Under the pieces are notes generated by a model. It was not told the origin of the DNA. It saw only the letters and a list, made by a program, of their open reading frames with translations, and made no database searches. DNA of 64,000 bases, from the NCBI GenBank assembly GCA_035771175.1, contig CM069612.1, positions 23,728,987 through 23,792,986 on the forward strand, read 5' to 3'. Positions 398 through 47,297 of the stretch are shown one piece after another. The stretch's first letter is position 1, and the number at the start of each line of letters is the position of its first letter. The stretch is from Paratinospora sagittata (taxonomy: Eukaryota; Streptophyta; Magnoliopsida; Ranunculales; Menispermaceae). The position numbers were made by a program, and so were the translations under genes.

Positions 398-2919
398 TTG
401 GGTGAGTGAGTGGTGCTGGGAAATTGGACTTCTTTACTAGATAATGGCATGTGATTGTGATGCTTGTGGAGTTCAAATGTTTTGCAAACTTCTTTTAATA
501 GAAGAGAAAGGTAAGTTCTATGTGTCAACAAGACTCACTTTTCTAGTGGAAAACATGGTTTGATAAAGCGATTTAGGGAGAGAGAGGCCACTTAGCTTGT
601 AATGGAAAAGCAGGAACAGAGATTAATTTGGAATTTTCTGTGAGTCTTTTGAAATTAACGAGATGGGCGAGGGTGACATGCTTGTTTTTAGCTCTATTTT
701 CACTGATAAATCAAAGAATCAGGTAAAACATGATGACCTTGTGAAAATGATTTGGGCCATTTTACATTGTGCACATAAATTTCATCATCTCGTATAAAAT
801 TTAAAGAGTAATACTATTTTTAAACGTAATTTTTAATTTATATTGACGGGACGTTGTTTATATATAATATATAAAAAAAATTATAATAATAGAACTACTT
901 ACATCATATATTATCATGTAATACAATGTTAAAAAAAATATTGAGAAATATATCTCCTAAACATTTTTTTAATTTAAAATCTTTTTTTTCATATTTAGAA
1001 TTACATGATTAAATATTTGCAACCTAACCTTGAAGAATGATTTGGGCTATTCAACCTCTTATTTTTTAAAATAAAGATTTCTTAAATAAAAAAATATTTA
1101 AATGTGTTGTACTGTCATCAAAAAAATAAAAATAAAAATTATGTTGTACTCTAAAAAGGAACTTTAGTAAATAGGTTTTTAATATAATTCTTTTAGGTCA
1201 CGTAGGCCCTGTTCATCTAGTTAATGTCCCTCTCTTTCACAAGTAAGAGAGTTCAAGTCTTGACACCAACAAAATAAAGGGTCAACTATTATTGATAATG
1301 TTCAATGATTTTGTTGTAGGCTTTTCACCTTACTTGTCAGGATTATGTATCCTTAATCGAAAGGCTTTGCTCTCTTGTGCTCCGGTTTCTGTCTAATTTT
1401 ATTTGAGGCTTATACACCAATTTTGTGAATCTGTTGTTCTTTAGAATAATTCATGATGTTGATAAAATGTATTTTTTTACATACGAAGGAAGCAATAGAA
1501 TGAGAAAAAATTGTTTTCTTGAAATAGAGTTAAATTAAAGAGGACTTGTTACATCAATTATTACTTGAATTTATTAAATCAGACTAGCAAAAGGTTAGGA
1601 GTTAAGTGTTGACTTAACGTTTGATAAAGCAAGGTGGAGGAAACAAATCTATATGGCTAACCCATGTAGTTAAAAACAAAGAAGAAAAGAAGAAGAAAAG
1701 CTTAGTTGAATTGATTTTGGAAGAAAACTCTAAAATCTGTGTATTGAAAACTAGTTTGGATGGCATATTTTGTAAATTAAGAAATTTCGCTTACTATCAG
1801 TTGTACAAAGTTTTGTTATAAAATCTTTTTTCAAAAGAAAAAAAAAATTTACTACAAGTCATATGGAATTTGGTGGATTAATTGGCAAGAATTATATTAT
1901 TGGCTATTTAGAAAAGCTTGCTTTATGATGAAAAAACAAATACTTTGTTGTGAGGGTATAGGATTTTAAGGCTTTTTTTATAAAAAGAAAAATAAGAAAA
2001 AGAAATATTAGAGAGTCGAGTAATCAACTGGGATTTTTTTTTTCTTTTTTTTTTTGCTGAACTGGGTTTAGACCCTAATGTATTCCCGTGAGGTGTCAGA
2101 CTCTTTTAGGATGCACTAATCCCTATACTAATCGGTATGTCCCCGGATTATCATCATCAAGAAGAGCGTTATCAGTCGAGTTTGATAATCTGTCATTTCT
2201 ATTAGCATTACTTATTTTGATATAACCTATGTTAGGAAGCCTTTATCCTCAGCAGGTGCCCGCACAAATCTATAATATATACTTAATAACTCACTCCAAA
2301 GGAGACTCCTCAGCGCGCCACGTCAGCATGCTTAGAAAATCATGTTTGACCCAAAAAAAAAAATTGTGGACTAATTCTTAATTTTGAAGATCTATTATGA
2401 ATTAACCCCACAACCATACCTAAACAGTCATATAAAAATAAGTGTTCAGACTATTTTTTTTTTAAAGTAGCAATCCTCTACGCCAGCTTATCCACATTAT
2501 AAAGACTAATCTACTTGGAATGGGTACCACTAAAGGAACATAGTGGCATCGATATCAAATGAGTCTATAACATCCCAAGGATAAGCATTAAAATAAAAAT
2601 TGTGGACTAATTCTTAATTTTGAAGACATAATAATGATCAGCTGACAAAAAAATATTAAAAAATGGGAGTATGATCTTAACCTCATTGGTTAATTTAGCA
2701 TTTCTACTTAATCATTTTGTCCAAACGTACTGTTGCCCATGTGATCTTGCAGCCTTTCTTGACTACTGTTACATGAAGATTTTTCCTGATTTTGTCTTAG
2801 TTGTGAGAGATGGCCATGGATGGTTGTCCGTCCTGATCTTCTGCCTAATTTTGTCCAAGTCTGAGAGATGCCGCAGCCTTTCTTGACTATTGCCCATGAA
2901 GTATTGTTACATGTGTTAT
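398..2919. other. AT-rich spacer
   Basis: No gene is supported here. The left part should contain the promoter and 5' UTR of the epoxide hydrolase. Around 2745-2900 there is a diverged local duplication (both copies contain CAGCCTTTCTTGACTA). The ORFs present are short and of low complexity. Confidence 0.6.
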
Positions 2920-5302
2920 TGTAACGACCCACTTTTCGCACCATACATTGTGATGATGTGGACTGCCAATACGAGGTCTTGTACACGTAGTTGATGTGTA
3001 TAATACTCGTATACTGTGTTTACGAGGTATTTTAATAAATTTGTGTGTTTGATATGTATTAGTGTATAATGGTCTAATATATGAAATAATCATGTGTTAT
3101 GATCAATTAGGTGTTAAATTACATGTGTTATGGTCAATATCTAAGATATTCACATGTTCATTAAATAATGAATGACTGGTGGAATGAATGAAAATTAAAT
3201 AAAGAATAAGTGTCTTAATCACATTCAGCCACCATGCACTCATTTAGACACCTATTAGCTTGTGCATGCTATGTCATAAGTGTCTTAATCAAATTCAGCC
3301 ACCAAGCACTCATTTAGACACCTATTCCCAAATACAGCCACCATAAACGCATTTAGACACCTAGTAGCTTGTTGGCATGAGTTGTTTGTGGCTGAAATGT
3401 ACAAGTGACGTTGCATAACTGAATATTGAGCTAGAGAGAAAATGAGAATACGGGTGAGGAAGGAGGAGATTTGGAGCTCCAAATGAAGGTGAGCTACATG
3501 GGTTTTGATGTGAAAATTAATGATTTTTGTTTGCTCCTCTCTTCATTTTCCTCAACATAAGTAACATGCAATGAATTCCTATGGTTAGAAATTGAACCTG
3601 GAGAATGGAAGTTCTGGGTTGGAATGGATTGAATTGGAGGCTCAAATCATGGGAAATGAATTCCTGGACCATTGGTGAGTATCTTGATGATAATTTCACT
3701 GATTTTTCTATGGTTGATTTGGGTATTCTAGACCGTTGCTGAGTAGGGGTTTTGGAACCCAATTTCAGTAATTGAATTGTGATGTTTTGATGTGGCTAAT
3801 TGCTGAAAATTGAGCTTGAGTATTTTGTGATGATAAATTACAGAGATTTAGGTACAAAACTTATCAATTTTTGAGTTTAATGTTAAGCACAAGTATGCTT
3901 GATGTGCTGAAAATGTTAGAGCGTTGGAGATGCTAAAGGTAAATTGGTTATTGATTAATTGGTGGTCAAATGATTAAATTGATTACATGTTTAATTGCTG
4001 AAAACGGATCTTGGTGGTTGGTGTTGCTGAAATTTACAGGGATTGCAATACTGAATTTGATAAAGTTTAGTTGGGTGATGAGCACAAGCTAAGTACTTGT
4101 GCTGCAAAAGTGATGGAGTGAGGAACACATTGGTAAGGTGTTTATTGATGTATTATGATTAAATCAGTGATTAATTAGTGATCAAATGATAATAATTGAT
4201 TAAGTTCATGTGCTGGAATGTATGTTTATGTGTGCAATGTGGAATTGCAGATTATTAAATGGGGATATGAAATGAACAAGTGAAGTACTTGTGTGATAAA
4301 AGTCGAAAATTGGCTAAGTATTGAGATTGTGGACGTAGGCAAATCTTGTATATGTGAGTATAGTTTTCTTGATTTGGTTCTTGTATGACATTGTACGCAT
4401 ATAAAATGTTTGATTGTATGCATGTTATATATATATATAATGCATTGAGTTTTATGGATCATGCAAACTGATTTTAGCACTTGGAGTTTGTAATGATGAG
4501 GCTTTGCGATTCCTCATTGTCATTTCGTTAGGACTTAGACCCAGATGAGGTTTTGCGAGTCCTCACTGTCAGTAGGTCTGTCCTAACAAGGGTTGCGATC
4601 CTTGAAATGACTGTGAATTGGGTGATGAGAAGCTGTGTCTACCTTGTACGGCCATACAAGGGTTAGACCCGCTCTCTTGCCTTGCGGAGGAGGGAGATTG
4701 TGCATTGTGGTATTGAAAATCATGCAATTTATGTTGTTGACATGTATGATATATTCGTTAAATGATGCATGTGTTGAATAAGTGTTTGAAATGATTTTAA
4801 ATGTCATATTTCTCTAAATGTATATACTTGTCATCTCAAGAACTATATTCACTGAGCTGTTGTTTGCTCACCTCATTTCCTCCAATATTTCAGGTATTGA
4901 GTCGAAGGGAAAAGGAAAAACTCCGTGAGTGATAATCACGTGAGCCTTTGTCTAGTATGTGTGTGTAGGCTTGGAGGAAATAAATTATATTTTTGTTATT
5001 TTGATATGTATACTTATCACACATTATATATATATATATATATATGTATTATCATCTAGATGGGATGTGTGGGCATATATATAGCTTAATATATTGGATG
5101 ATGAAATGAAAATGTGACGTGTTAATGAGATCTATATTGGATTTGATTTGTGGTATAGGAAAAAAAAAATTCTATACATTTTGGGAAGAATTGTGAGAGT
5201 ACGTGAAGGCTGACAGTGTATTATATACTGTATATGAGTATGTACAGTGTATAGTACACTGTGCCGGTCATGACGTCAACCTACGTCGGGGGCGTCGTGA
5301 CA
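2920..5302 (+). repeat. 5' LTR of the outer Gypsy element
   Basis: The LTR begins TGTAACGACCC and ends GGCGTCGTGACA (TG...CA termini), about 2.38 kb. The start is fixed by its repeat at 19781 after a polypurine tract, the end by the primer-binding site that follows. A related LTR lies at 40041-42401. A short (TA)n tract sits near 5021-5045. Confidence 0.85.
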
Positions 5303-5318: not shown

Positions 5319-6452
5319 ATAAGTTTAAAATTCGTAAAAAGATAAAAGCTTTATGATATTATGATTGTTTAAATGGGTATACATATGGGTAGTCCTAATA
5401 TGTTGAGCCTAATCCAATATGTTATCTTGCCTGAGAATCACCTATGTCGGTGAACTCTAGATGTGTGGAAAAGACCAGTCAAGATTAACAATGGAAATTG
5501 CTGATCAAGAAAGGATCAGAAGGCTGAAAGAAAAAGAACTGGATGTAATCCAGTGATAATAAACTATATAACTGATATATGGCTAGTGAAACGAAATGCA
5601 TAGCTTATGAGCTTGTGGTAAAGTTGTAATGTGAGAAAGACAGAGGCTTGAATCATTGATAGCTCCAGATGTGGGTGCCAATGGTGTGAGTATTTCTGTA
5701 AAAACAGACTGAAGTCAAACTAAAATAAATAGAAGGTCTCAATGATAAGCCAGATGGAATGAAAAGATGTGAAAATTATGAAAACTTTCAGGAAAAGAAA
5801 CTTTCCTAACTTAACTGGCAGTCTGATAGTAGACGTAGTAAAGAATTTGTTACTCTGCTTGGAGACCAACTTAGAGAATGATTAAGTCTCTGCCACTGAT
5901 AAAGCACATTAGCTAAGTTTTAGCTAACTGATGATAAGAGATTATAGAAAAGTGGGTTAAGGACTCCTGATATGATTAAGGCATGAGATTAATTAAAGAA
6001 GCTATTTTATGATGGCTTCTATCATCATGCTGAAATGGATTTAAGGCATGAAAAAGGTTATCTTGTTAAAATGTAGTGACATGCCTAACCAGAAATACAA
6101 ACATGAATTAAATAGACTGGTATAGTTTATTTTTGGAATGATCATTCTGAGAATGATAAGGATCTAGAATAAATTCCAGTATCCTATACGACAGGTTTGA
6201 TAATTGTTGGGTTATAACTATATGCGTAAGTTGTGAGGCAACCTATAGATCTTAGGTTAGCCAATGTTGTGGTGAAATTATTAACACCAACAATACTAGT
6301 AAGATAGCTTGTACCGTCGTTTGAAGCCGAGTCATCAACACCAGTGTTAGGTAAAAAGAGAAATAAGGAATGTAAGGAAATGTTGGGGCAAGAATATGAA
6401 ATTAAAGATGAGTTAAACATTGAGTAAGGTTGAGATTTTGGCAGTATTAGTG
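5319..6452 (+). pseudogene. Degenerate gag region of the outer element
   Basis: Position just after the primer-binding site is that of gag. No ORF of useful length survives and no gag motif can be read with confidence. The last five bases (TAGTG) are the left target duplication of the nested element. Confidence 0.45.
6448..6452. repeat. Target site duplication, left copy (TAGTG)
   Basis: TAGTG directly precedes the 5' LTR and recurs at 16687-16691 directly after the 3' LTR. Five bases is the standard Gypsy length. This fixes both ends of the nested element. Confidence 0.92.
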
Positions 6453-9400
6453 TGTGACGCCCCGAAAATTATTTCATCTAGCCCATAACCAAATTGCATT
6501 TTTGCCCAAACTCTATGTGTTGTTTGATGATTGTTTAATGTTTGTATAGTTGATGCTTGATAATGTATATAAATATATGTATCATAAATTGTATATGAGT
6601 CATGTTAAATTAAAGTATAATGCATATGTTATGATTTATGCATGGGCTCATTAAACCATGAATTGATATGGGTTAGGATTGATTGAATAAAAGGATAAAT
6701 GAGAATGAAAATTTGGTGTATTAAATGGATTGAACATTTAAAATACATGGAAGCATGAGATTGGTTAAAATACATGTGGTTGGTATGGGTAGTATGAGAC
6801 CAACACATGTGAAGGTTGGTGCATGAAAATGGACAAGTGTCCCATGCTCACTTCTAGAATCCAAGAATGTGCTAGCAAATGAGGTGAGTGGAGGAGAGAA
6901 TCCAAGAATGTGCTAGCAAATGAGGTGAGTGGATGAGAGAATCCAAGAATGTGCTAGAAAATGAGGTGAGTGGAGGAGAGAATCCAAGAATTTTCTAGAA
7001 AATGAGGTGAGTGGAGGAGGGAATCAAGGAAGTGCTAGAAAGAGGTGAGTGGAGAGAAAGGAAAGAAGAAGAGAAAGAAAAGAAGAGAAAGGAAAGAAGA
7101 AGAGAAGGAAGGAGAGAGTTGCAGGAGGAAGATCCCTGCGACGTTTCCATCAAAGAGGTGGATCTTTGGAATATACGGTCAGATTGAGCTCAAATTTTAT
7201 CAGCACGTTCGTAGCTTATGGTTCTTCATTCTGGTCGGTGGAGATCTTGATCAGAGGTTTCGTCTAAGAGATCTAACCTCTCAAACAAAGCTGGTCGGAA
7301 AGTCTAGATTTCTCGCACCGTTTCGGTAAAACTTATAGATCTACTAAATCTACCGTTAGATGGCTACCAAATTTGGGTATGTCGTTTAAAACTGATATTT
7401 CTACAATCGGAACGGTGGAGATCGTAATTAAAGGCTTTTTCTAAGAGATATAATCTCTCAAACGAAGCTGGTCGGAATTTCTGGGTTTCTCATGCCGTTT
7501 CGGTCAAACTTGTATATCTCCTCAATCTACCGTTGGATGGATATAAAATTTGGGTATGTAGTGTATAACAGAAATTTCCGTATTCTGAACGGTGGAGATG
7601 TATATACAATTAGTAGTTTTTGTGATATAGCCATTTGATTTTGGGTATCTGCAGCAGGAAAGGAGAAACTGTCTGATTAGACACTTGTTCATCAAAGATA
7701 CATATCTTTTCGGTCCACCGTTGGATTGGGCTGATATTTGGACAGAAGGTTTGTTTCTTCACATACTTCAATCTGTACGGTTGATTTTGTGATTACATAT
7801 TTCTATTGGTAGATTAATACATCTGAACAGAATATTAAATGAAGAATTGGTAAGGTGCTTGTATTGGACCTAAATTTAGAATATGATCTTAGACATTTCC
7901 AAATAGCTTGCATGTCAACTATGTTGACCTAGTTGCCATTGTTGATGAAACCATGATGCAAAATCAGTAATATACATGGCTGAACATGGTGACCTAGTGT
8001 AAATCGACAATATGGCCTAAGTATGGAAAATTTCATATTTTAGGGCTTTTGATGCTTTTGGCCTAGAATCATTGAATTGATGCAACTTATGTTTAATTAA
8101 GCATGATTAGGGTTGATTATGCTACTGATTTGGTGGTTGTGACCATATCATGGGTTAGGCCTATTTGTGATTAAGTGACCCAATTTGGGCATGTTTATGC
8201 CTAAGGAATTGAAAATCAGTATCTTTTGATTAATAGAATGGTTTATGAATGAGAACTATGCATTAGAGGCCTAAGTCATGTGATTTGAGTTGAATGATGG
8301 GATTAGATGAGATTTAGGCCTATTGTCTATATGTGAGATGATTTAGGGTTGATGTGTAATGTCTATGTGATTGAGCATAGAAATTGACGTATGGTAGGAC
8401 ATTGATGAATGTTTCAGGATCTTGATTGGGTTGATTCGGTTTGGAGGTCGTGTGTGGTTAAATACTCTCGCGAGGCTTGGTTGTGAGTAGACTTCATTTA
8501 TGATTATATCTTTTATGTCATCATATCACTTATATATATTGTATCTTGAAAGCATGAATGTGTTCTAATGTTTTGAATGATGCATTGATTTGAGAAAACC
8601 TTATGACTTTGGTTGGACCCATCTATCTGGCTAATAGGGGGACTTAACCTTGTCATAAGAGGGTTTTAGGAAAGGAAATGATTGGGATCAACGGCACGGT
8701 GAAATAGACGTGTACTAGTAACCCAAATAAACATGATTGGGATCAACGGCACGGTGAAATAGACGTGTACTAGTAACCCAAGGCATGTGGAATGTGGATC
8801 CAAATTGATAAACTTTTACCTGCATCGAACCTATTATAAATGCTTGATATCTATATGTTATGAGCTTTTAATCATGCTACACATTGACATGCATACATGG
8901 TTTTTATTGATGAGTATTGATAGCATATTTGAATTCTATTCACTGGGCATCGTTGGCTCACCCTCATTTTCCTCTTTCAGGTCCTTCTGTCCCGAATAAG
9001 GGCAAAGGAGTAGTCATATCTTGAGGGCCTTGCCTGCGAGAGAATCCAAGGCCTCGATGTGAGTTGAGAGGCATTTTGATTGAATTGTGTTTAAATTATG
9101 AAGTACTATATTTTGGATTATGTAATTATAACACTTACCACATTGTAGTATGGGTGAGTTGGGACTTGTTAGATAGACTATGTGGGCATATGACGGTTTT
9201 ATTTGTACCCACAATTTTGGACTTTATGAGTATGTCAATTTTAATGGACTGTAGGGATTATGATTATTATTTATGGTTCATTTTTTTATGGATTATCTCT
9301 TGTCTTGGATGATTAATACGGTGGGTAGTTTTGTTTAATACCTTTTGATATCATATTGTTGTTTGGGATAAGGCTTGTAGGGTCTCAACCACCTCACGGG

Positions 9401-9501
9401 AGTTGAGGAGTGGTCGGAGATGCCTACGCCGGGCGTCCCGCTCCGGCATTCCGCATGCCATTCCCTGCGGGGTTGGTGGTCCGGGGCGCGGGGTCGCCAC
9501 A
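6453..9501 (+). repeat. 5' LTR of the nested element
   Basis: Begins TGTGACGCCCCG and ends GGGGTCGCCACA, 3,049 bp. It contains a five-fold 41-bp tandem array (6856-7050), a two-copy 55-bp repeat near 8683-8780 and a diverged two-copy block around 7260-7560. Basic Glu/Lys/Arg-rich ORFs near 7045 come from purine-rich repeats and are not genes. If it acts as a promoter, it drives transcription towards the RKD gene. Confidence 0.92.
6856..7050 (+). repeat. 41-bp tandem array in the 5' LTR
   Basis: About 4.8 copies of a unit containing GAGGTGAGTGGA, each starting near AGAATCCAAG, with small differences between copies. The same array occurs in the 3' LTR from about 14041, so it predates the insertion. 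Confidence 0.85.
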
Positions 9502-9503
9502 GT

Positions 9504-9515
9504 TGGTATCAGAGC
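9504..9515 (+). other. Primer-binding site of the nested element
   Basis: TGGTATCAGAGC, the canonical initiator-tRNA-Met site, starts two bases after the 5' LTR. Confidence 0.88.
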
Positions 9516-9656
9516 CTGATTTTACTAGGTTTGGTCTATGTATTGGACTTAGATAACTTTAACCTAGGAATTGGGTGAGAGATTTAGGTGATTAAAAAGC
9601 TTAAAGGAACTAATTTAAAAGCCTTACTATCATATTTTCTGTGTGTATTATATGAT

Positions 9657-10398
9657 ATGGGTAGTTATGAGGCGGGCACTAGTGGGGCCGAGGCTAGTGG
9701 AGCTGCAGGGGCAGCAGGACCTCAAATGGCTGTACCTCAGCCTATGCCTACACCTGCTCCTATTGATGTGGAGAACCCCACTGATCAACGGATCAGATTG
9801 CTAGAGAAGTTCATGAAGTTAAAGCCTAAGGAATTCACTGGTGGGGTTGACTTGAAGAAGGCCGAAGATTGGCTGAAGAATGTCGAGAAAATCAGTCGCT
9901 TCTTAGAGCTTGATGAGGAGTCTCTGGTTCTATGTGCTGCTCACACACTGGAGAGTGATGCAGAGGACTGGTGGCCTTCAGTGTTGGATACACAGGGGAC
10001 AGTGAAGAGTTGGGACACCTTCAGACGGTTGTTCTTACAGGCTTACGTTCCAGAGACTGAGAGACAGGTTAAGCAACTCGAGTTTTTGAATCTCGCATAG
10101 GGCACCATGTTAGTCAGGGAGTACGAGCTCAGATTTAGGCAGCTCGCAGTTTATGCCCCTGGGTTAGTTCAGACGCCGAGTGACAAGATTATGAGGTTTT
10201 CTTTAAACCTAAAGCCCGCGATCCGACAGGCCTTGTCTGTGACGAAGATGACTGATTTTACCACAGTGGTCCAGAGGGCCAAACAATACAAGTTGGCTGA
10301 GCGGGTTGATGGTATGTCTACACGGGCAGCTCCAGCACGCCTGTCACACCTGCAGCCAGCACTTGTTGACTTTGGAGTCGGAGTTACTATTGGTTAGC
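9657..10398 (+). pseudogene. Partial gag of the nested element, with an in-frame amber stop
   Basis: The likely start is ATG 9657 (MGSYEAGTSG); the frame is open from 9588. An Ala/Gly/Pro-rich N-terminus is followed by the retrotransposon gag core: KPKEFTGGVDLKKAEDWLKN, a DAEDWW motif, and FRRLFLQAYVPETERQVKQL. A TAG at 10098-10100 falls within an otherwise continuous frame, which resumes at once with GTMLVREYELRFRQL; a CAG glutamine is the likely ancestral codon. Homology fades after about 10340 (GMSTRAAPA), before any CCHC zinc knuckle, and a 58-bp tandem array follows. It would supply at most a truncated capsid. The family call is sure. Stop readthrough cannot be judged from sequence. Confidence 0.85.
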
Positions 10399-10425
10399 AA
10401 GCCTGTCGAAGTTCCTATGCATCTG

Positions 10426-10625
10426 CACTCCTGCAGTCAGCCGGTTCATCGCACGCCATTCTTGAGCCGCACGCTCTCCTGTTCAGCCGCATGCTTGTCG
10501 GTTTCATCGCACGCCATTCTTGAGCCGCACGCTCTCCTGTTCAGCCGCATGCTTGTCGGTTTCATCGCACGCCATTCTTGAGCCGCACGCTCTCCTGTTC
10601 AGCCGCATGCTTGTCGGTTCTTCAA
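10426..10625 (+). repeat. 58-bp tandem array at the gag/RKD junction
   Basis: About 3.4 copies of a 58-bp GC-rich unit, with CAGCCGCATGCTTGTCGG starting at 10484, 10542 and 10600. It lies exactly between the end of gag homology and the 5' flank of the RKD gene, and has no counterpart elsewhere in the window. Confidence 0.9.
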
Positions 10626-10779
10626 CACGCTTGTCAGTTCGTTTGTGTGAGTTATACTACTGCTAGTCTGGTTTTCTAGGGGTGGTGGAGTTGGTGATTG
10701 AGTTTGTTGGAGGCTGAGATTTTCTGGGCATTAAAAGGAGAAGATAGTAAAGGAAGAGAGAAAGAAGAGAAGAAATATT

Positions 10780-12085
10780 ATGGCAGGAGGAGAAGGAGGA
10801 GCAGCTCCGGCGCCGAAACAGGATGAGTTGCAGCCACATCCGACGAAGGAGCAGCTGCCCGACATTTCTTACTGCATTACCAGCCCTCCACCATGGCCTA
10901 ACAGAGACATGGTGGATATTGGAGAAGACCCATTTCTCTTCTCAAACCAATTCCACCCACTTGATTTCAGCTGTTCAAGTTTTGGTAGCAGCCCGTATAC
11001 GTGGGAGCCTCTTCTAGAATATGGCTTACGCGAGGCAGTGGTACCACCCTTCATGAATTCTTCAATGGATGAAGATGAATTTCCAAGCCAACTTAATGAA
11101 CTTGAAGAAGCGGAGAAACAACAGATTGTGATGCATGAAAATGGAGAGGGGATGAGTAGTACTGGTACTAATCATGTGGACTTTGGAGGTTTGAATCAAA
11201 TGAGAATTGGATTAGAAGGGGAGAAACAACAAATTGGGATGAATGAAAAGGGAGAGGGGATGATTAGCTGCTGCAGTAGGAGTATTAGTGGTACTGGTAG
11301 TGATCATGAGGAATCGATGACGAAACTGAAGAGGGTGAAGACTCTATCACGCACGAACCTCTCACGCTACTTCTACATGAGCATATCAGAAGCTGCAAAA
11401 GAACTTAAGGTGGGCTTAACGCAGCTGAAGAAGAGGTGCAGGGAATTGGGCATCCCTAGATGGCCTTACAGAAAGTTGATGAGCTTGCAGGTCGTTATAA
11501 AAAATGTTCAGGAATTGGTGGAAGGAGAAGGTGTTTGTGGAGATATGAAGATAAGAGAAGCGTTGAGGTTATTGGAGGAACAAAGGAAATGGCGTCACAG
11601 AAATGCACTGCAGGAAATGGGGGAAGGAGAAGGGGTTAGTAGAGATATGAAGATAAGAGACAGGTTGAGTTTATTGAAGGAACAAAGGAAATGGACTCAG
11701 AGAAAGGTGATGACCTTGCAGACCGTTATGGCAAATGTTGAGGTATTTATCACCATTATATATTGATCTGTATAAGTATTTTGATATCTCAACTTGGGGA
11801 TGTTCTGAGTAAGATAATTACTTGTTAATTAATTATGTACTGCAGGAAATGGGGGAAGGAGAAAGGCTTGGTGGAGATATGAAGATAAAAGATGCTTTGA
11901 GTTTATTGGAAGAAGAAAGGAAGTTGATGGAAGAGATGCCAGATGTGCATCTTCAGGAGAAAACAAAGAAACTAAGGCAGGCTTGGTTCAAGGCCAACTG
12001 CATGAAAAGAAAGGAAACCAACGGCAAGAAAAGAAAAGACATGACGCTAGAGTGGCACCCAGTTGCTATTTCTCGTTTAAATTAA
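10780..12085 (+). CDS. RKD-type RWP-RK transcription factor gene inside the retrotransposon
   Basis: Two exons, 10780-11742 and 11846-12085, encode 400 residues with no stop or frameshift. The N-terminal 190 residues are acidic and divergent. The RWP-RK domain is at about 195-244: FYMSISEAAKELKVGLTQL, KKRCRELGIPRWPYRKLMSL, then KNVQEL, with RWPYRK at 227-232. This is the DNA-binding signature of plant RKD proteins, nuclear regulators of egg-cell identity and early embryogenesis. A coiled-coil module (GEGEG..DMKIR..L.LL.EQRKW) occurs three times in a row, ending in MEEMPDVHLQEKTKKLRQAW as in RKDs. The 103-bp intron (GT 11743, AG 11845) is phase 0. The gene lies in the same orientation as the LTRs and replaces most of pol. 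The start was chosen because it follows a purine-rich leader and gives the longest frame. It may be a functional copy, a retroelement passenger or a decoy; the sequence cannot decide. Confidence 0.9.
11743..11845 (+). other. Intron of the RKD gene
   Basis: 103 bp, GAG|GTATTTATC donor and TACTGCAG acceptor, AT-rich, with in-frame stops. Joining at these sites restores the third coiled-coil repeat (NVE then EMGEGERL). The intron is in the sense orientation of the retroelement transcript. Confidence 0.85.
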
Positions 12086-12460
12086 CAGTTTATCATGTAT
12101 GAAGTGAGTAGTGATTTTCACAAACTTGGCTGAATAAAGTGTCAACTTAAGTAGATCTTGTGATCATTGGTCTTAAGAGATACTGATTAAGCTGTTTTAT
12201 GAGTAGATGCTAGAGTAACTAAATTTATCAAGTCCCCTAAACCCTAAAATGATGGCCAATCATGAAGGTTGCATATCATGTCAGATGATCAATGTGTTAC
12301 TACACTTCTATACCTAAATTAAAAGTAGGGGACTTAAGTTTATGATGTGGAGCAACTGATAACAGTTTGTCTTAAATTAACAATAGACCGAATATCAGAT
12401 GTCTTCATATTGAAATTCTCCATTTTCCTTTAGTAAAAGGGCCTATTCCTATTAGTATGT
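12086..12460 (+). other. Presumed 3' flank of the captured RKD gene
   Basis: AT-rich, no ORF, no retroelement homology that I recognise. It probably represents the 3' UTR and downstream DNA carried with the gene. AACAGTTTATCA at 12084-12095 is shared with the 21-bp array that follows. Confidence 0.5.
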
Positions 12461-12544
12461 TTGAACAGTTTATCAGTACTTTTGAACAGTTTATCAGTAT
12501 GTTTGAACAGTTTATCAGGACTTTTGAACAGTTTATCAGTACAT
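12461..12544 (+). repeat. 21-bp tandem array at the RKD/integrase junction
   Basis: Four copies of a 21-bp unit containing TTGAACAGTTTATCAG (starts 12461, 12482, 12503, 12524). Integrase homology begins immediately after. Its core resembles AACAGTTTATCA at 12084, next to the RKD stop codon. Confidence 0.9.
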
Positions 12545-12545
12545 T

Positions 12546-13573
12546 CCTTCCCGAGGAGACATAATGCTGTTTGGGTTATTATTGATCGCTTGACCAAGTC
12601 CGCTCACTTTCTACCGGTGAACACTAGGGATTCTATGGGCAAGCTGAGCAGACTCTATATGCGGGAGATAGTCAGATTACATGGAGTGCCAGTTTTGATT
12701 GTGTCAGATAGGGATCCGAGGTTTACATCGGTATTCTGGCAGGGGTTGCAGAGGCAGCTCGGCACTAGACTAGATCTCAGTACCGCTTTTCACCTGCAGA
12801 CGGATGGCCAGTCTGAGAGGTTGATATCGATTTTAGAGGATATGCTTCGAGCTTGTGTCCTTGAGTCCAGTGGTAACTGGGAGGAGTACATACATCTGTG
12901 TGAGTTCGCGTACAACAACAGCTATCAGTCCAGTATTGGCATGGCTCCTTTTGAGGCATTGTATGGTCGACCCTGTAGATCTCCGATCTGTTGGACGGAG
13001 GTAGGGGATGTTACGGTGATGGGACCAGAGTTTGTACAAGAACACACAGAGAAGATTAAGAGGATCAAGCATAATATGAAGGTAACCCAAGACAGGCAGA
13101 AGAGTTACACTGATGCCAAGCGGAAAACCGTAGAGTTCGAGGTGGGTGACCAAGTTTTATTGAAGGTCTCACCTCAGAAGGGCCAAACTAGATTTGGGAT
13201 AAAAGGCAAGCTCGCTCCTAGATTTATTGGGCCGTTCGAGGTTTTAGAACGAATTGGCCCCGCCGCTTACCGATTAGCCTTGCCACCTCAGTTAGCAGCA
13301 GTCCACAATGTCTTTCACGTGTCAATGTTGAGAGTGTACAAGAGTGATTTTGATCACGTTTTGGACTGGAGGAACATTGAACTGAGGCAGGATGGGACTT
13401 ATGATGAGGAACCTATTCAGATACTTGATCGGAAGGTCCAGAGGTTACGTAACCGTGAAATTCCGATGGTTAAGGTGAGATGGCAGTTCCATGGCGAGGA
13501 ACAGGTTACTTGGGAGCGTGAGGACTACATGATGGAGCACTTTGCCGAGTTCATGGGCTTAGGAAATTCTTAA
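12546..13573 (+). pseudogene. C-terminal integrase and chromodomain-like tail of the nested element
   Basis: The frame is open and ends with TAA at 13573. It starts inside the integrase core (HNAVWVIIDRLTKSAHFLPV), so the first catalytic Asp is lost. The second Asp (VSDRDPRF) and the Glu (TDGQSER) remain; the usual HPQTDG reads HLQTDG. The GPY/F-type C-terminal region (RFIGPFEVLERIGPAAYRLA, HNVFHVSMLRVY) is intact and is followed by a chromodomain-like tail (DRKVQRLRNREIPMVKVRW, ending MEHFAEF). It cannot catalyse integration but may keep nucleic-acid or chromatin binding. The upstream 30 codons of the open frame come from the 21-bp repeats. No methionine lies near the homology start, so expression would need fusion or an internal start. 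Confidence 0.88.
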
Positions 13574-13603
13574 CCTTAAAACTTCGAGGACGAAGTTCAT
13601 TCT

Positions 13604-13616
13604 AAGGTGAGTGTGA
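13604..13616 (+). other. Polypurine tract of the nested element
   Basis: AAGGTGAGTGTGA abuts the 3' LTR after the CGAGGACGAAGTTC stretch found at the end of many plant Gypsy polyproteins. It is less pure than usual. Confidence 0.6.
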
Positions 13617-16600
13617 TGTGACGCCCCGAAAATTATTTCATCTAGCCCATAACCAAATTGCATTTTTGCCCAAACTCTATGTGTTGTCTTGATATGTTTG
13701 GTGTTTGTTTGATGATTGTTTAATGTTTGTATAGTTGATGCTTGATAATGTATATAAATATATGTATCATAAATTGTATATGAGTCATGTTAAATTAAAG
13801 TATAATGCATATGTTATGATTTATGCATGGGCTCATTAAACCATGAATTGATATGGGTTAGGATTGATTGAATAAAAGGATAAATGAGAATGAAAATTTG
13901 GTGTATTAAATGGATTGAACATTTAAAATACATGGAAGCATGAGATTGGTTAAAATACATGTGGTTGGTATGGGTAGTATGAGACCAACACATGTGAAGG
14001 TTGGTGCATGAAAATGGACAAGTGTCCCATGCTCACTTCTAGAATCCAAGAATGTGCTAGCAAATGAGGTGAGTGGAGGAGAGAATCCAAGAATGTGCTA
14101 GCAAATGAGGTGAGTGGATGAGAGAATCCAAGAATGTGCTAGAAAATGAGGTGAGTGGAGGAGAGAATCCAAGAATTTTCTAGAAAATGAGGTGAGTGGA
14201 GGAGGGAATCAAGGAAGTGCTAGAAAGAGGTGAGTGGAGAGAAAGGAAAGAAGAAGAGAAAGAAAAGAAGAGAAAGGAAAGAAGAAGAGAAGGAAGGAGA
14301 GAGTTGCAGGAGGAAGATCCCTGCGACGTTTCCATCAAAGAGGTGGATCTTTGGAATATACGGTCAGATTGAGCTCAAATTTTACCAGCACGTTCGTAGC
14401 TTATGGTTCTTCATTCTGGTCGGTGGAGATCTTGATCAGAGGTTTCGTCTAAGAGATCTAACCTCTCAAACAAAGCTGGTCGGAAAGTCTAGATTTCTCG
14501 CACCGTTTCGGTAAAACTTATAGATCTACTAAATCTACCGTTAGATGGCTACCAAATTTGGGTATGTCGTTTAAAACTGATATTTCTACAATCGGAACGG
14601 TGGAGATCGTAATTAAAGGCTTTTTCTAAGAGATATAATCTCTCAAACGAAGCTGGTCGGAATTTCTGGGTTTCTCATGCCGTTTCGGTCAAACTTGTAT
14701 ATCTCCTCAATCTACCGTTGGATGGATATAAAATTTGGGTATGTAGTGTATAACAGAAATTTCCGTATTCTGAACGGTGGAGATGTATATACAATTAGTA
14801 GTTTTTGTGATATAGCCATTTGATTTTGGGTATCTGCAGCAGGAAAGGAGAAACTGTCTGATTAGACACTTGTTCATCAAAGATACATATCTTTTCGGTC
14901 CACCGTTGGATTGGGCTGATATTTGGACAGAAGGTTTGTTTCTTCACATACTTCAATCTGTACGGTTGATTTTGTGATTACATATTTCTATTGGTAGATT
15001 AATACATCTGAACAGAATATTAAATGAAGAATTGGTAAGGTGCTTGTATTGGACCTAAATTTAGAATATGATCTTAGACATTTCCAAATAGCTTGCATGT
15101 CAACTATGTTGACCTAGTTGCCATTGTTGATGAAACCATGATGCAAAATCAGTAATATACATGGCTGAACATGGTGACCTAGTGTAAATCGACAATATGG
15201 CCTAAGTATGGAAAATTTCATATTTTAGGGCTTTTGATGCTTTTGGCCTAGAATCATTGAATTGATGCAACTTATGTTTAATTAAGCATGATTAGGGTTG
15301 ATTATGCTACTGATTTGGTGGTTGTGACCATATCATGGGTTAGGCCTATTTGTGATTAAGTGACCCAATTTGGGCATGTTTATGCCTAAGGAATTGAAAA
15401 TCAGTATCTTTTGATTAATAGAATGGTTTATGAATGAGAACTATGCATTAGAGGCCTAAGTCATGTGATTTGAGTTGAATGATGGGATTAGATGAGATTT
15501 AGGCCTATTGTCTATATGTGAGATGATTTAGGGTTGATGTGTAATGTCTATGTGATTGAGCATAGAAATTGACGTATGGTAGGACATTGATGAATGTTTC
15601 AGGATCTTGATTGGGTTGATTCGGTTTGGAGGTCGTGTGTGGTTAAATACTCTCGCGAGGCTTGGTTGTGAGTAGACTTCATTTATGATTATATCTTTTA
15701 TGTCATCATATCACTTATATATATTGTATCTTGAAAGCATGAATGTGTTCTAATGTTTTGAATGATGCATTGATTTGAGAAAACCTTATGACTTTGGTTG
15801 GACCCATCTATCTGGCTAATAGGGGGACTTAACCTTGTCATAAGAGGGTTTTAGGAAAGGAAATGATTGGGATCAACGGCACGGTGAAATAGACGTGTAC
15901 TAGTAACCCAAATAAACATGATTGGGATCAACGGCACGGTGAAATAGACGTGTACTAGTAACCCAAGGCATGTGGAATGTGGATCCAAATTGATAAACTT
16001 TTACCTGCATCGAACCTATTATAAATGCTTGATATCTATATGTTATGAGCTTTTAATCATGCTACACATTGACATGCATACATGGTTTTTATTGATGAGT
16101 ATTGATAGCATATTTGAATTCTATTCACTGGGCATCGTTGGCTCACCCTCATTTTCCTCTTTCAGGTCCTTCTGTCCCGAATAAGGGCAAAGGAGTAGTC
16201 ATATCTTGAGGGCCTTGCCTGCGAGAGAATCCAAGGCCTCGATGTGAGTTGAGAGGCATTTTGATTGAATTGTGTTTAAATTATGAAGTACTATATTTTG
16301 GATTATGTAATTATAACACTTACCACATTGTAGTATGGGTGAGTTGGGACTTGTTAGATAGACTATGTGGGCATATGACGGTTTTATTTGTACCCACAAT
16401 TTTGGACTTTATGAGTATGTCAATTTTAATGGACTGTAGGGATTATGATTATTATTTATGGTTCATTTTTTTATGGATTATCTCTTGTCTTGGATGATTA
16501 ATACGGTGGGTAGTTTTGTTTAATACCTTTTGATATCATATTGTTGTTTGGGATAAGGCTTGTAGGGTCTCAACCACCTCACGGGAGTTGAGGAGTGGTC

Positions 16601-16686
16601 GGAGATGCCTACGCCGGGCGTCCCGCTCCGGCATTCCGCATGCCATTCCCTGCGGGGTTGGTGGTCCGGGGCGCGGGGTCGCCACA
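13617..16686 (+). repeat. 3' LTR of the nested element
   Basis: Begins TGTGACGCCCCG and ends GGGGTCGCCACA, 3,070 bp. It matches the 5' LTR with a constant offset after one 21-bp insertion near 13694-13714, and contains the same internal arrays. Confidence 0.92.
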
Positions 16687-16691
16687 TAGTG
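16687..16691. repeat. Target site duplication, right copy (TAGTG)
   Basis: Exact match to 6448-6452, directly after the 3' LTR. Confidence 0.92.
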
Positions 16692-19767: not shown

Positions 19768-19780
19768 AAGTTGGGGAGAT
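19768..19780 (+). other. Polypurine tract of the outer element
   Basis: AAGTTGGGGAGAT directly precedes TGTAACGACCC of the 3' LTR, the usual arrangement in plant Gypsy elements. Confidence 0.75.
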
Positions 19781-20180
19781 TGTAACGACCCACTTTTCGC
19801 ACCATACATTGTGATGATGTGGACTGCCAATACGAGGTCTTGTACACGTAGTTGATGTGTATAATACTCGTATACTGTGTTTACGAGGTATTTTAATAAA
19901 TTTGTGTGTTTGATATGTATTAGTGTATAATGGTCTAATATATGAAATAATCATGTGTTATGATCAATTAGGTGTTAAATTACATGTGTTATGGTCAATA
20001 TCTAAGATATTCACATGTTCATTAAATAATGAATGACTGGTGGAATGAATGAAAATTAAATAAAGAATAAGTGTCTTAATCACATTCAGCCACCATGCAC
20101 TCATTTAGACACCTATTAGCTTGTGCATGCTATGTCATAAGTGTCTTAATCAAATTCAGCCACCAAGCACTCATTTAGAC
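19781..20180 (+). repeat. Truncated 3' LTR of the outer element
   Basis: Collinear with 2920-3319 over 400 bp; I saw no mismatch or gap. The match stops abruptly at CATTTAGAC, so about 2 kb of LTR and the right target duplication are deleted. Confidence 0.9.
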
Positions 20181-42921: not shown

Positions 42922-45404
42922 ACAACAATGCCCACCTCAACAAAGACAATGATGAAAACAGTGATGAGGATGATGGACATGAGATGGATAATTTTGTTGA
43001 TATGCGTGGTACTTTCTTGAGAGTAATTGAAAATGATGGGTCTAGTATGCATCGCCACTACGAGAAGATGGCAATGGCGTAAGCATTGAAGAAACGGAGT
43101 TACAAGACACTGAGTTGCATAGTATGGGTGGTACAGCACAACCTACCATAGCAAGTTTTAAGGCTCCATCACCGAATTTCATGGAACTTAATCATGAAGC
43201 TATGACCCCATTGTCAGACAATCATGATAACATATCGATGGGGTGGAACGAGTCACAAGAACTTTGCGAAGGACTCATATTTTCCTCAAAGGAAGACTTG
43301 CAACATAGAGTAAAACGATGTTGTATAGCCAAGCAACAAGAATATGTCGTGGTCGATTCAAAACCCAAGTTTTGGTCAATTAGGTGTAAGAAATGGAAAG
43401 ATGGTTGTCAGTGGAGGCTACGGGCTTCGAAACGCAAGAAATCGAGATTGTTTGAGATCACAAAATGCCCATTCCCACACATATGTATTTATGCCCAAAT
43501 GTCGCAAGATCATAGACAATTGGATTTAAAGCTAATATATCGCGAAATTTTTGATATTGTAAAGCGAGATCCTTCAACTTCTGTGTCGGCGCTACATCAA
43601 GTAATTAAAAATAATTACAAATACGATGTGCATTACAGAAAAGTGTGGCGTGCAAAAAAAAAAAGGTGATGGAAAAGATATTTGGTGATTGGGAGGGATC
43701 GTATAACTTACTCCCAAAATGGATGGATGCATTGAATGCTAGTAATCCAGGTTCGCACGCATTTGTAAATCACTACGAACCTGACAACAATGGGATAGCC
43801 ACGTTTCATCGTTCTTTTTGGGCTTTTGGTCCCTCAATTGAGGGTTTTAAGCATTGTAGGCCTATTATACAAATAGATGGTACACACTTATATGGAAAAT
43901 AACGCGGTAAGTTGCTCAAAGCCACGACAATCGATGCAGCCAGTCATATATTCCCTCTCGCATTTGCTATTGTTCATCAAGAAAATACTGACAACTGGGC
44001 TTGGTTTCTAAGGAAGCTTCGTTATAGCGTGACTAACAGAGAAGGCATTTGCCTTGTCAGTGATCGTCACCCTGGCATATTGAATGCAGTTAAAAGAGTA
44101 GAGAATGGTTGGACCGAGCCGGAGGCATATCATAGGTTCTGTTTGAGGCATGTGGGTAGTAATTTCAATGATAAGTACCGTAACGAGAAGTTGAGAGATT
44201 TGGCCAAGGCAGCAGGGTCACAACACCAACCACGCAAGTTTGAGGCACTAATAAAAGAACTAGAGCAACAGAAAGAGGGTTGCACAAGATGGTTTAATCC
44301 CATTACCCTTCCTAGAGAGAGGTGGACAATGGCTTACGATGGTGGGGTGCGGTATGGTTGGATGACTACGAATGTCGCTGGTTAGTCTTTGCATTTACTT
44401 ATTTGAATTCTCTGAGCTATTTTTTTTATTGTCAATTACTGTTTGATTTGTTTCGTGTTTTTTTTCTTTAGAGTGTTTCAATGGAGTATTGAAGGGGGCT
44501 CGATTTTATCCGGTCACAGCATTGGTTCAGTTGACGTTTTATAGATGTGTTGGGTGGTTTATCGTTAGACGACAAGAAATAGATGAAACAATTAGTAATG
44601 GAGAAGTTTTCACAAAGTATGCGGTTGAGAAAATGAAAAATTGGGGGCTTAAGGCAGGGAACCACACTGTTACAATGATCAATCGACAGCTTGAGACATT
44701 TGAGGTTGTTACCGGTATACAAGATGTCCGCATGAACAAAGAGGGAACACAAGCAGGTCGTTCGACTAAAAGATCGTTTCTGCAGCTGCGGAAAATGGCA
44801 ATGTTATGGGATTCCTTGTTCACACGTCCAAGCAGCGTGTCGTTATGCTTCGATCAATTGTGACCAATACATTGATCATTGGTACCTCCTCCAACATTAC
44901 TCTAAGTGTTATGAAGCTCAGTTTCATCCCATTCCGCACGAATCTTATTGGCCACAATGTACTATTCCGTAAACGATGATACCTGATTCTGGTCATGTTC
45001 GCAAATCTGGTCGACCGAGGTTGTCGCGCCTAAGAAATGAGATGGATATAAGGGAACCCTCGTCTAAGATTAGATGTGGACAATGTGGAGAAGAATGCCA
45101 CAACAGGCGAAAGTGTCCAACCCTCCGTGATGGGGCTGCATAAGCTATTGTTTGCCCACATATATTTCATGTTTTCTACTTTTTCAGTCTCCTGTATCTT
45201 TTGCAATGTAATATGACACTTTGGAATAGACTTTGTCATGTATGAGCTATTGTCTAATAATGATTATCGCATGCAGTTGCAATGTTCTGTACCTTCCGAT
45301 TATATATTGTTTTATTCTCTCATTTTTATCTTTTTCTAATATTTCTTTATCAACGTTTGATCCTAATGTGCTAATTAAATGTAATGTTAGTTCATCTACG
45401 TTAG

Positions 45405-46215
45405 ATGGATCCAGGACCTTTAAATCCATCAGTACTATCGTTGCAGGCCCGTCATCGATCTGGTCCCATATGGGATGGAGAGGTACTTACGTATTATTTT
45501 GATATTTAATCCCTTTTGAATTAAATCTTTGATTGACAATATAATAATTTAATTTTGCAGCCAGTGCAAGAGTTGCATTGCCGACGTAGGGAAGCCGTGG
45601 TCCATCGCACACTTCCGCTTGACCTACGTATTATTCCATACTTGCAGCGAGCTGGTTTTTATGGGGTAGCACGTGTTGGATACATTCAGTTAGACTGGTA
45701 CTTAATTACGACCTTCATTGAGCGTTGGCGTCAAGAGACCCATACCTTCCACCTTACATGCGGAGAGGCGACTATTACACTCCAAGATGTGGAGGTGCAA
45801 TTGGGCTTGCGTGTCGATGGTCTACCAGTGACGGGATCGACCAACCTTCTTTACGAAGATTTATGTGCTGAGTTGATCGGGTTCATTCCACTTGGGAAAG
45901 AAAAACGTGGGGGACGATTGAGTCTAGTCACCCTTGGAGAAAGAGTTCCAAACTTACCCGAAGAAGCAACAGAAATTGAAATACAACAGTATGCACGAGC
46001 ATATATTTTGCAATTGATTGGAGGTGGGTTGTTGTCAGACCAGTCAAACAACCTTGTACACCTATGTGTTCTGCCTCTTCTTGCGGACTTTGATGTTGCC
46101 GGTACATATGCGTGGGGCAGTGCAGTGCTAGCATGGTTATATCGTCAAATGTGTCGTGCGGTTGATTATGACAAATGAGGTGTTTCAGGAGCACTGGTAC
46201 TAATACAACTATGGG
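45405..46215 (+). pseudogene. Plant mobile domain (PMD/MAIN-like) ORF, truncated
   Basis: Exon 1 45405-45482 (MDPGPLNPSVLSLQARHRSG), intron 45483-45560 (GT...TTTTGCAG), exon 2 from 45561. The protein shows the PMD pattern: IPYLQRAGFYGVARVGYIQL, FIERWRQETHTFHLTCGEAT, QLGLRVDGLPVTGST, ARAYILQLIGG, and WGSAVLAWLYRQMCRA. PMDs occur in MAIN/MAIL proteins of plants and in plant transposons. A TGA at 46176 interrupts the frame, which reads on as GVSGALVLIQLW until an LTR begins at 46216. The ORF starts 260 bp after the end of the MULE transposase in the same orientation, so it is probably the second gene of that element. It is inactive as it stands, and the C-terminus is missing. Confidence 0.85.
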
Positions 46216-47297
46216 TGTGGCGACCCCGCACCCCGAACCACCAACCCCACAGGGAATAGCGTGCGGAATGCCGGGGTGGGACGCCCGGCATAGGCATCTC
46301 CGACCACTCCTCAACTGACTTGAGGTGGTTGAGACCCTACGAGCCTTATCTCAAACAACAACATAATATCAAAAGGTACTAAACAAAACTACCAACCGTA
46401 TTAATCATCCAAGACAAGAGATAATCCATAAAAATGAACCATAAATAAAATCATAATCCCTATAGTCCATTAAAATTGACATACACATAAACTCCAAAAT
46501 TGTGGGTACAAATAAAAACCGTCATATGCCCACATGGTCTATCTAACAAGTCTCAACTCACCCATACTACAATGTGGTAAATGTTACAATTACATGTCAA
46601 AAGCCCCTTACCATTCAATAGCACTTTCATTTTTACAAATCCAGCATGAAACCCTCATTCTCAACCATCTAATCGAACCATTGAAACCCAACCAAAATCA
46701 GATATGATGAACAACTCATAAAGAGGAGTTCAAAACTGGAAATTTCAGTTCAAAAGAGCAAGATTTTATTTGAGATTCAAGCCTCCAAACCCTTTCCTTT
46801 CTTCTTTCTTTCGTTCCTCTGTTCTTCCTCTTTCTTTGCTCAAGTTTAGCAACTCAAAATGTGCTGGAAAATTCAATAAATTTCCACTTAAATTTGCGCA
46901 ACCGCCTCACTGATCAAACGGTGAGAAGCGCGCTTCTCTGGGTAAGGTGCGCGCTTCTCCGGGTAAGGTGCGCGCTTCTCCTTATCCAAAAATATAATTT
47001 TTCACCCTGAACAAGTGAGACGCACGCTTTTTCCCTTTGGGAGCGCACTTCTCTGAACATACTGAAAAATCACCTCTCGGTTTTGACACAGAAGCGCATT
47101 TCTTGCGTTCCTAATTTGAAATTTCACTAAATATTGGGCATTTAATGACATGGTTAACATTCTAAAGTACTAATGACCCTACTATATATGTAATGTCATC
47201 ATTCTTAAGCCCATATACATACGTATAGGCGTATAAATACATCTTGTAAGACATAAAAGTCAATGTATATGTTTGACTCAAATGTACGGGTGTTACA
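46216..47297 (-). mobile_element. Inverted LTR related to the nested Gypsy element
   Basis: The reverse complement ends like the 9501/16686 LTR end: TGTGGCGACCCCGC here corresponds to GGGGTCGCCACA there. Similarity runs over several hundred bases. The other terminus is GGTGTTACA. It is only 1.08 kb long, so it is a shorter family member or internally deleted. It contains direct repeats with GCGCGCTTCTC near 46925-46980. No target duplication: ATGGG on the left, ATCCA on the right. Confidence 0.8.

Follow-up and report, generated by a model that had tools for sequence, protein, structure and literature searches.

In a 64,000-nucleotide stretch of the Paratinospora sagittata genome (GenBank assembly GCA_035771175.1, contig CM069612.1, positions 23,728,987 to 23,792,986; hereafter the window), a long terminal repeat (LTR) retrotransposon carries an RKD-type RWP-RK transcription factor gene between the remains of its gag and integrase regions. 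Comparison with its relatives elsewhere in the genome makes it very probable that the element belongs to a defective LTR family with a complete RKD gene, which was captured from the host with its introns and has since been copied through element RNA. The parts of the element are listed here in window coordinates.

6448–6452, no strand: target-site duplication TAGTG, left copy
6453–9501, plus: 5' LTR, family 1
9504–9515, plus: primer-binding-like site TGGTATCAGAGC
9657–10397, plus: gag remnant with an in-frame stop at 10098–10100
10445–10619, plus: 58-bp tandem repeats between gag and RKD, differing in copy number among elements
10780–11742, plus: first remaining RKD exon, a fusion of three exons of other copies
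10897/10898, plus: site of the precisely lost intron 1 (144–159 bp where present)
11107/11108, plus: site of the precisely lost intron 2 (98 bp where present)
11344–11487, plus: RWP-RK domain, residues 189–236 (Pfam E 1.4e-21)
11509–11603, plus: coiled unit 1 of an internal repeat
11611–11705, plus: coiled unit 2, preceded by letters that resemble the end of intron 3
11743–11845, plus: intron 3, kept in 40 of the 40 copies read
11846–12085, plus: last RKD exon, with coiled unit 3 and the stop codon
12086–12540, plus: RKD 3' untranslated or downstream sequence with short tandem repeats
12541–13573, plus: integrase remnant, matching SH3_Tf2-1 and, weakly, a chromodomain
13604–13616, plus: degenerate polypurine tract AAGGTGAGTGTGA, preceding 13617
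13617–16686, plus: 3' LTR
16687–16691, no strand: target-site duplication TAGTG, right copy

The architecture is that of an LTR retrotransposon, with paired LTRs ending in TG...CA (one mismatch in 3049 aligned bases and one 21-bp indel in their alignment), a perfect 5-bp target duplication, and a primer-binding site that we take to be of the initiator-Met tRNA type. A first-pass annotation, made from the letters alone, had named these parts and described a broken gag, a mostly lost pol, and an intact 400-codon RKD gene where protease, reverse transcriptase and RNase H belong; all of this agrees with our analysis, except that the polypurine tract it also listed, though present before the 3' LTR, is degenerate. 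Because the only frames of at least 120 codons inside the element are gag, RKD and the integrase remnant, no protease, reverse transcriptase, RNase H or integrase start is present at that length. The C-terminus of the remnant matches SH3_Tf2-1 in Pfam (E 2.7e-26), while the rve (8.6e-4) and Chromo (0.0065) matches both lie below the curated cut-offs; a Ty3-type chromovirus, whose integrase ends in SH3-like and chromodomain parts, is thereby a candidate assignment. With a stop in gag and pol reduced to this remnant, the element is non-autonomous as judged by the need for intact gag and pol.

The RKD gene itself is an open frame of 400 codons in two exons, running from the ATG at 10780 to 11742 and, after a 103-bp GT-AG intron, from 11846 to 12085. 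PF02042 is found in all 120 protein relatives listed of 570, many of them named RKD and a few NLP-like, and the top two among the matches listed come from Stephania and Thalictrum. A sequence-based search for solved structures gave none for the RWP-RK part; its four matches all align the coiled part with designed repeat proteins. Around the start of coiled unit 2 (11600–11622), about ten bases are like the end of intron 3 (11831–11850), as if a piece of the intron had turned coding upon duplication. Reading by eye between 12086 and 12540, we saw no poly(A) tail at the capture border.

Is this a single odd insertion or one member of a family? A search of the source genome (1.29 Gb, 4049 contigs) with the RKD query yielded 40 scored copies out of 717 candidates, whose main stretches are 98–100% identical. 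A diagnostic 37-mer of the three-unit RKD occurs at 172 genome places with up to three mismatches and its reversed control at none, so the matches are not due to chance; the 100 listed of these places are spread over 24 large contigs, C1 to C24. When offset by two bases, the 37-mer shows 0–2 mismatches in the 40 copies read, against 18 in a third element type (L077) and 16 in a host RKD gene (L078), both treated below. The figure of 570 places given by a first 39-mer was rejected as an element count, since L078 matches that 39-mer with one mismatch, and 172 was used instead.

We fetched ten loci at length. Seven were two-LTR copies of the window's family, family 1 (on C22, C17, C25, C21, C8, C2 and C24b); two, on the near-identical contigs C4029 and C327, belong to a second family; and the one on C1 lacks a 5' LTR. 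Among the eight two-LTR family-1 copies, window included, six have perfect and mutually different 5-bp duplications (window TAGTG, C22 ATACC, C17 CCATG, C25 TTATG, C21 GTATG, C2 GTCTT), C24b has one with a single mismatch, and C8 is a tandem read without its right end. The LTRs of family-1 pairs are 0–0.7% apart, which at 1.3e-8 changes per site and year puts the insertions at no more than about 0.3 million years of age. The gag stop lies at the identical codon in five copies (window, C22, C17, C25 and C21), and a sense codon stands there in C4029 and C327; the motif used to search for the stop was not found in C8, C2, C24b or C1. A broken gag thus seems to have been passed on through several insertions, from which we infer that the family received help in trans.

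Because seven family-1 insertions, the window's among them, carry their own target duplications, six of them perfect, this is a transposing family and not a chimera; recurrence at many loci likewise excludes an assembly artefact. The mobility and genomic spread proposed in the first-pass annotation are borne out by these dispersed copies with distinct duplications, by near-identical LTR pairs and by introns lost exactly at splice sites, and the further LTR-gag-RKD-integrase copies with other duplications that it had suggested looking for do exist, for instance on C22, C17 and C25. An ordinary RKD gene might instead have been invaded by an LTR element, or have landed in one later, without the two ever moving together, and the contrast of an intact, intron-keeping RKD with a broken gag would suit such a history. 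Yet the gag-RKD-integrase order and its borders are repeated at many loci whose target duplications differ, and the gag stop falls at one codon in five copies, which makes separate histories virtually inconceivable. Insertion of RKD into the finished element at a later date is ruled out by the copies with distinct target duplications.

The intron content of the copies bears on how they were made. The window gene has a single intron, and its relatives reveal that two more have been lost from it. Three introns are present in 18 of the 40 copies; 19 are without intron 1, and three, the window copy included, are without both intron 1 and intron 2. All introns that remain are GT-AG, and all losses are exact. 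Relative to the parent gene, introns 1 and 2 are thus lost from the window copy, as in a retrogene, and intron 3 is retained. The clean absence of introns from some copies indicates that copies were likely made through spliced RNA. Genome-wide, with up to three mismatches, the fusion of exons 1 and 2 is found at 40 places, that of exons 2 and 3 at four, and the border between exon 1 and intron 1 at 169, perhaps with other element types among them. One fusion of exons 2 and 3 (C22:29129459) lies outside the 40 exon 1–exon 2 fusions, so intron 2 seems also to be lost without loss of intron 1. In an IQ-TREE tree of the 40 copies (37 different), whose bootstrap had yet to settle, the intron-1 states require four changes, with well-supported branches forcing two of them, and the intron-2 states require two, both forced; the window copy sits inside the intron-bearing copies (support 97/93). 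The C6 and C11b copies are family-1 elements without intron 1. The length of intron 1 ranges over 144–159 bp in 18 copies, while that of intron 2 is constant at 98 bp (37 copies) and that of intron 3 at 103 bp (40 copies). In laboratory vectors, according to the part of the source available, loss of an intron serves as a sign of reverse transcription (PMC2923131), and the intron classes found here are a natural form of that intron-loss assay for retrotransposition.

Some sequence has been copied as DNA. RKD copies form tandem runs at C11:19383201–19406352 (period 7389) and C4:9399672–9414430 (period 6887), and the copy near 18002000 on C8 is arranged LTR-internal-LTR-internal. C4029 and C327 are 99.995% identical over 20 kb and represent duplicated or haplotype sequence, as do the family-2 insertions C5:44510852 (C5b) and C18:35471259, whose upstream flanks are alike at 300 of 300 bases on different contigs. 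Such cases would be expected if segmental or tandem duplication, rather than retrotransposition, had been the main route of spread, but dispersed copies with their own 5-bp duplications and intron losses that are exact at splice sites make that explanation very improbable.

Where did the gene come from? A search with the Stephania RKD brought up other RKD genes in the genome (137 matches). One of these, L078 on contig C1, has the canonical RKD residues and no family-1 sequence next to the gene in its 3.4 kb. Its exon stretches of at least 50 bases are 86–93% identical to those of the element, except one of 357 bases at 76%, and the likeness extends into the introns: 89.6% for intron 2 and 87.4% for intron 3, where 50 shuffles of intron 3 gave a mean identity of 53% and a maximum of 64%, and 76% over only 59 bases for intron 1. 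Since introns 2 and 3 are so alike, we infer that the capture kept the introns and drew on the host's own RKD lineage. The search for a donor urged in the first-pass annotation has thus led as far as a host relative of the donor. Most of the 137 matches belong to long tandem arrays of another RKD-type gene (one exon, about 154 residues, mostly stop-free), at C1:3344053–3444757, C14:9159870–9334941 and C14:11753993–11776056 and on contigs C1851, C2748, C2386 and C1553; the host RKD family is itself hugely amplified.

The cargo is not confined to family 1. The likeness of the C5b and C4029 copies to the window element is limited to a block that begins inside gag at about 10002 and ends inside integrase at about 12650; identity is 94–100% per 100-base step up to 12601, drops to 88–89% in the next step and is about 40–67% of a forced alignment beyond the shared block. 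The LTRs of C5b start with TGTAACACCCCG and are about 1.9 kb long, and the motif TGGTATCAGAGC is again present behind the 5' LTR of this family 2. When family-2 ends were fetched at eight loci (C5b and seven more), both ends were obtained at five, with four distinct duplications (CCCTC, AAAAG, TGCAT and GCATC), C5b and C18 having their flank in common. All 19 copies of a clade with 100/99 support lack intron 1, family-2 sequence outside the block being verified in ten of the 19. Block borders inside gag and integrase, taken together with the intron-1-less clade, would fit a single transfer of the RKD block from an intron-1-less family-1 RNA by template switching. The third RKD-carrying element type, L077 (C22:34128686–34129099, minus strand), carries an RKD with one coiled unit, in which introns 1 and 2 are present and intron 3 is absent. 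Its gag, repeats and leader are like those of the other elements; downstream of RKD, stretches are 82% like the family-2 integrase, and the sequence following RKD was read by eye as an RNase H-integrase link. The single-unit RKD of L077 suggests that the coiled unit was triplicated after capture.

These observations can be assembled into a probable history. An RKD gene with its introns would have been taken from the host's own RKD family into the place between gag and integrase. The element would be transcribed from its 5' LTR and, with RKD in sense orientation, introns 1 and/or 2 would be spliced out of a portion of the genomic RNA. Most of pol is absent from the copies and gag is broken in at least five of them, so we postulate an autonomous relative as the provider of protease, reverse transcriptase, RNase H and integrase. 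The intron-1-less RKD block would later have passed into the second LTR family by template switching within gag and integrase. Some findings weigh against this history. Fusion of exons 3 and 4, the mark of intron-3 loss in three-unit copies, occurs at no place genome-wide with up to three mismatches; element RNA would therefore need to be spliced incompletely, and consistently so. Recombination, in place of separate splicing events, could account for part of the intron-1 losses in C6, C11b and the window. Finally, L078 is one relative of the donor, and its 357-base exon stretch and intron 1 are much less alike.

Does the cargo do anything? The frame is full in 35 of the 40 copies; of the rest, four are cut short by an early stop, with the ATG missing as well in one of the four, and a fifth is without the ATG only. 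As the copies read are the best-scoring ones and not a random sample, this share is no random estimate of open frames. Among 31 copies (C327 was left out as a duplicate, and eight copies read later are not included), 114 changes comprise 87 nonsynonymous, 23 synonymous and 4 nonsense, against a neutral expectation of 79.3, 28.2 and 6.5; because these counts are near what is expected without selection, the young radiation looks neutral. Purifying selection as the cause of the open frames is unsupported among these young copies. The RWPxRK core is retained, and P201S, H230Y, T238V and L239V depart from the residues of 97–100% of the 120 relatives listed. Conserved-site changes number 11 on the element side versus three on the host side, one of them at an exon end and possibly an artefact. 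Both the change counts and the excess on the element side would fit a dead passenger, kept intact by the youth of the copies and without a role for element or host, and we consider this somewhat probable. It accounts less well for the number of frames still open among the best-scoring copies, for the older window–L077 pair, free of stops across 311 codons with a dN/dS of 0.60, for the host comparison (window–L078, 0.56 over 261 codons, host branch included), or for the success of the block in more than one element family.

Alternatively, the cargo might be useful, an element-made regulator of egg cell or embryo that raises the element's own expression in the germ line. The 172 places, the transfer between LTR families and the open frames are in keeping with this, as is the known role of RKD in egg and embryo (PMC9437720, available in part), but the lack of a selection signal among young copies and the changed DNA-binding positions make it unlikely. 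A bolder version, which we regard as quite unlikely, would have a selfish element armed with RKD, whose protein activates LTRs in the female germ line, whose cargo was adopted by a second family, and in answer to which the host RKDs expanded into tandem arrays; the element would then copy itself where copies are inherited.

Whether passenger or tool, the RKD gene of this family can be set beside several known systems, compared here from the available parts of the sources. That plant LTR elements can capture host genes is already well known. The closest known kind are the retroduplicated NLR genes of pepper, whole host genes within LTR elements with fewer introns than their parents, and the MADS-box transcription factors also found within such elements (PMC5664825); unlike the pepper NLRs, the present case has a single RKD lineage at 172 places, with graded intron states and its block in a second LTR family as well. 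Maize Bs1 is likewise an LTR element with transduced host gene sequence, but holds segments of three genes, none full-length, where here a complete multi-exon regulator is present in many copies; at the tomato sun locus, the LTR element Rider moved a host segment to a new place and the transduced segment affects fruit shape, whereas here the gene is internal and amplified (PMC13317346). In mini-Tnt1 with an intron-marked NPTII, a cargo that has lost its intron reveals that it went through spliced RNA, and switching of templates between RNAs was likewise inferred; that system is an engineered vector, and the present one a natural family marked by three introns (PMC2923131). RKD genes are linked to egg and embryo roles and are able to turn plant cells toward the fate of egg or embryo; in citrus, clonal seeds are linked to a transposon beside an RKD gene (PMC9437720). 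In the citrus case, CitRWP/CitRKD1, the relation of an RKD gene to a transposon matters for embryony as it might here, with the difference that a MITE lies in the RKD promoter there and the RKD itself lies inside the mobile element here (PMC9437720). Among the literature matches listed, judged by title and the start of the abstract, none describes an RKD-carrying retrotransposon, in agreement with the first-pass annotation, and neither RKD nor RWP occurs in the available part of a 2026 review of plant gene capture (PMC13317346).

Because the gene sits in a mobile element, with the 100 listed of 172 places on 24 large contigs, every insertion might newly supply an embryogenesis regulator. The family is also a natural record: its three introns count passages through spliced RNA, and the block exchanged by two LTR families shows how retroelements pass cargo to one another. 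With it, one could test directly whether a reproductive master gene can benefit a transposon or be spread by it.

The rest of the window adds some minor observations. Direct repeats of 402 bp, 100% identical, flank the RKD element at 2918–3319 and 19779–20180, with a purine-rich stretch before 19781; they may be the LTRs of an outer element in which the RKD element is nested. Pieces of a MULE transposase followed by a plant mobile domain (PMD) frame lie on one strand at 43046–46178, and at 46216–46595, on the minus strand, there is a fragment of the RKD element's LTR family, 92.7% identical to the LTR ends. The STABILIZED1 gene of the window likely places the source plant in Menispermaceae or nearby: it groups with Stephania (support 0.967, FastTree, 31 relatives).

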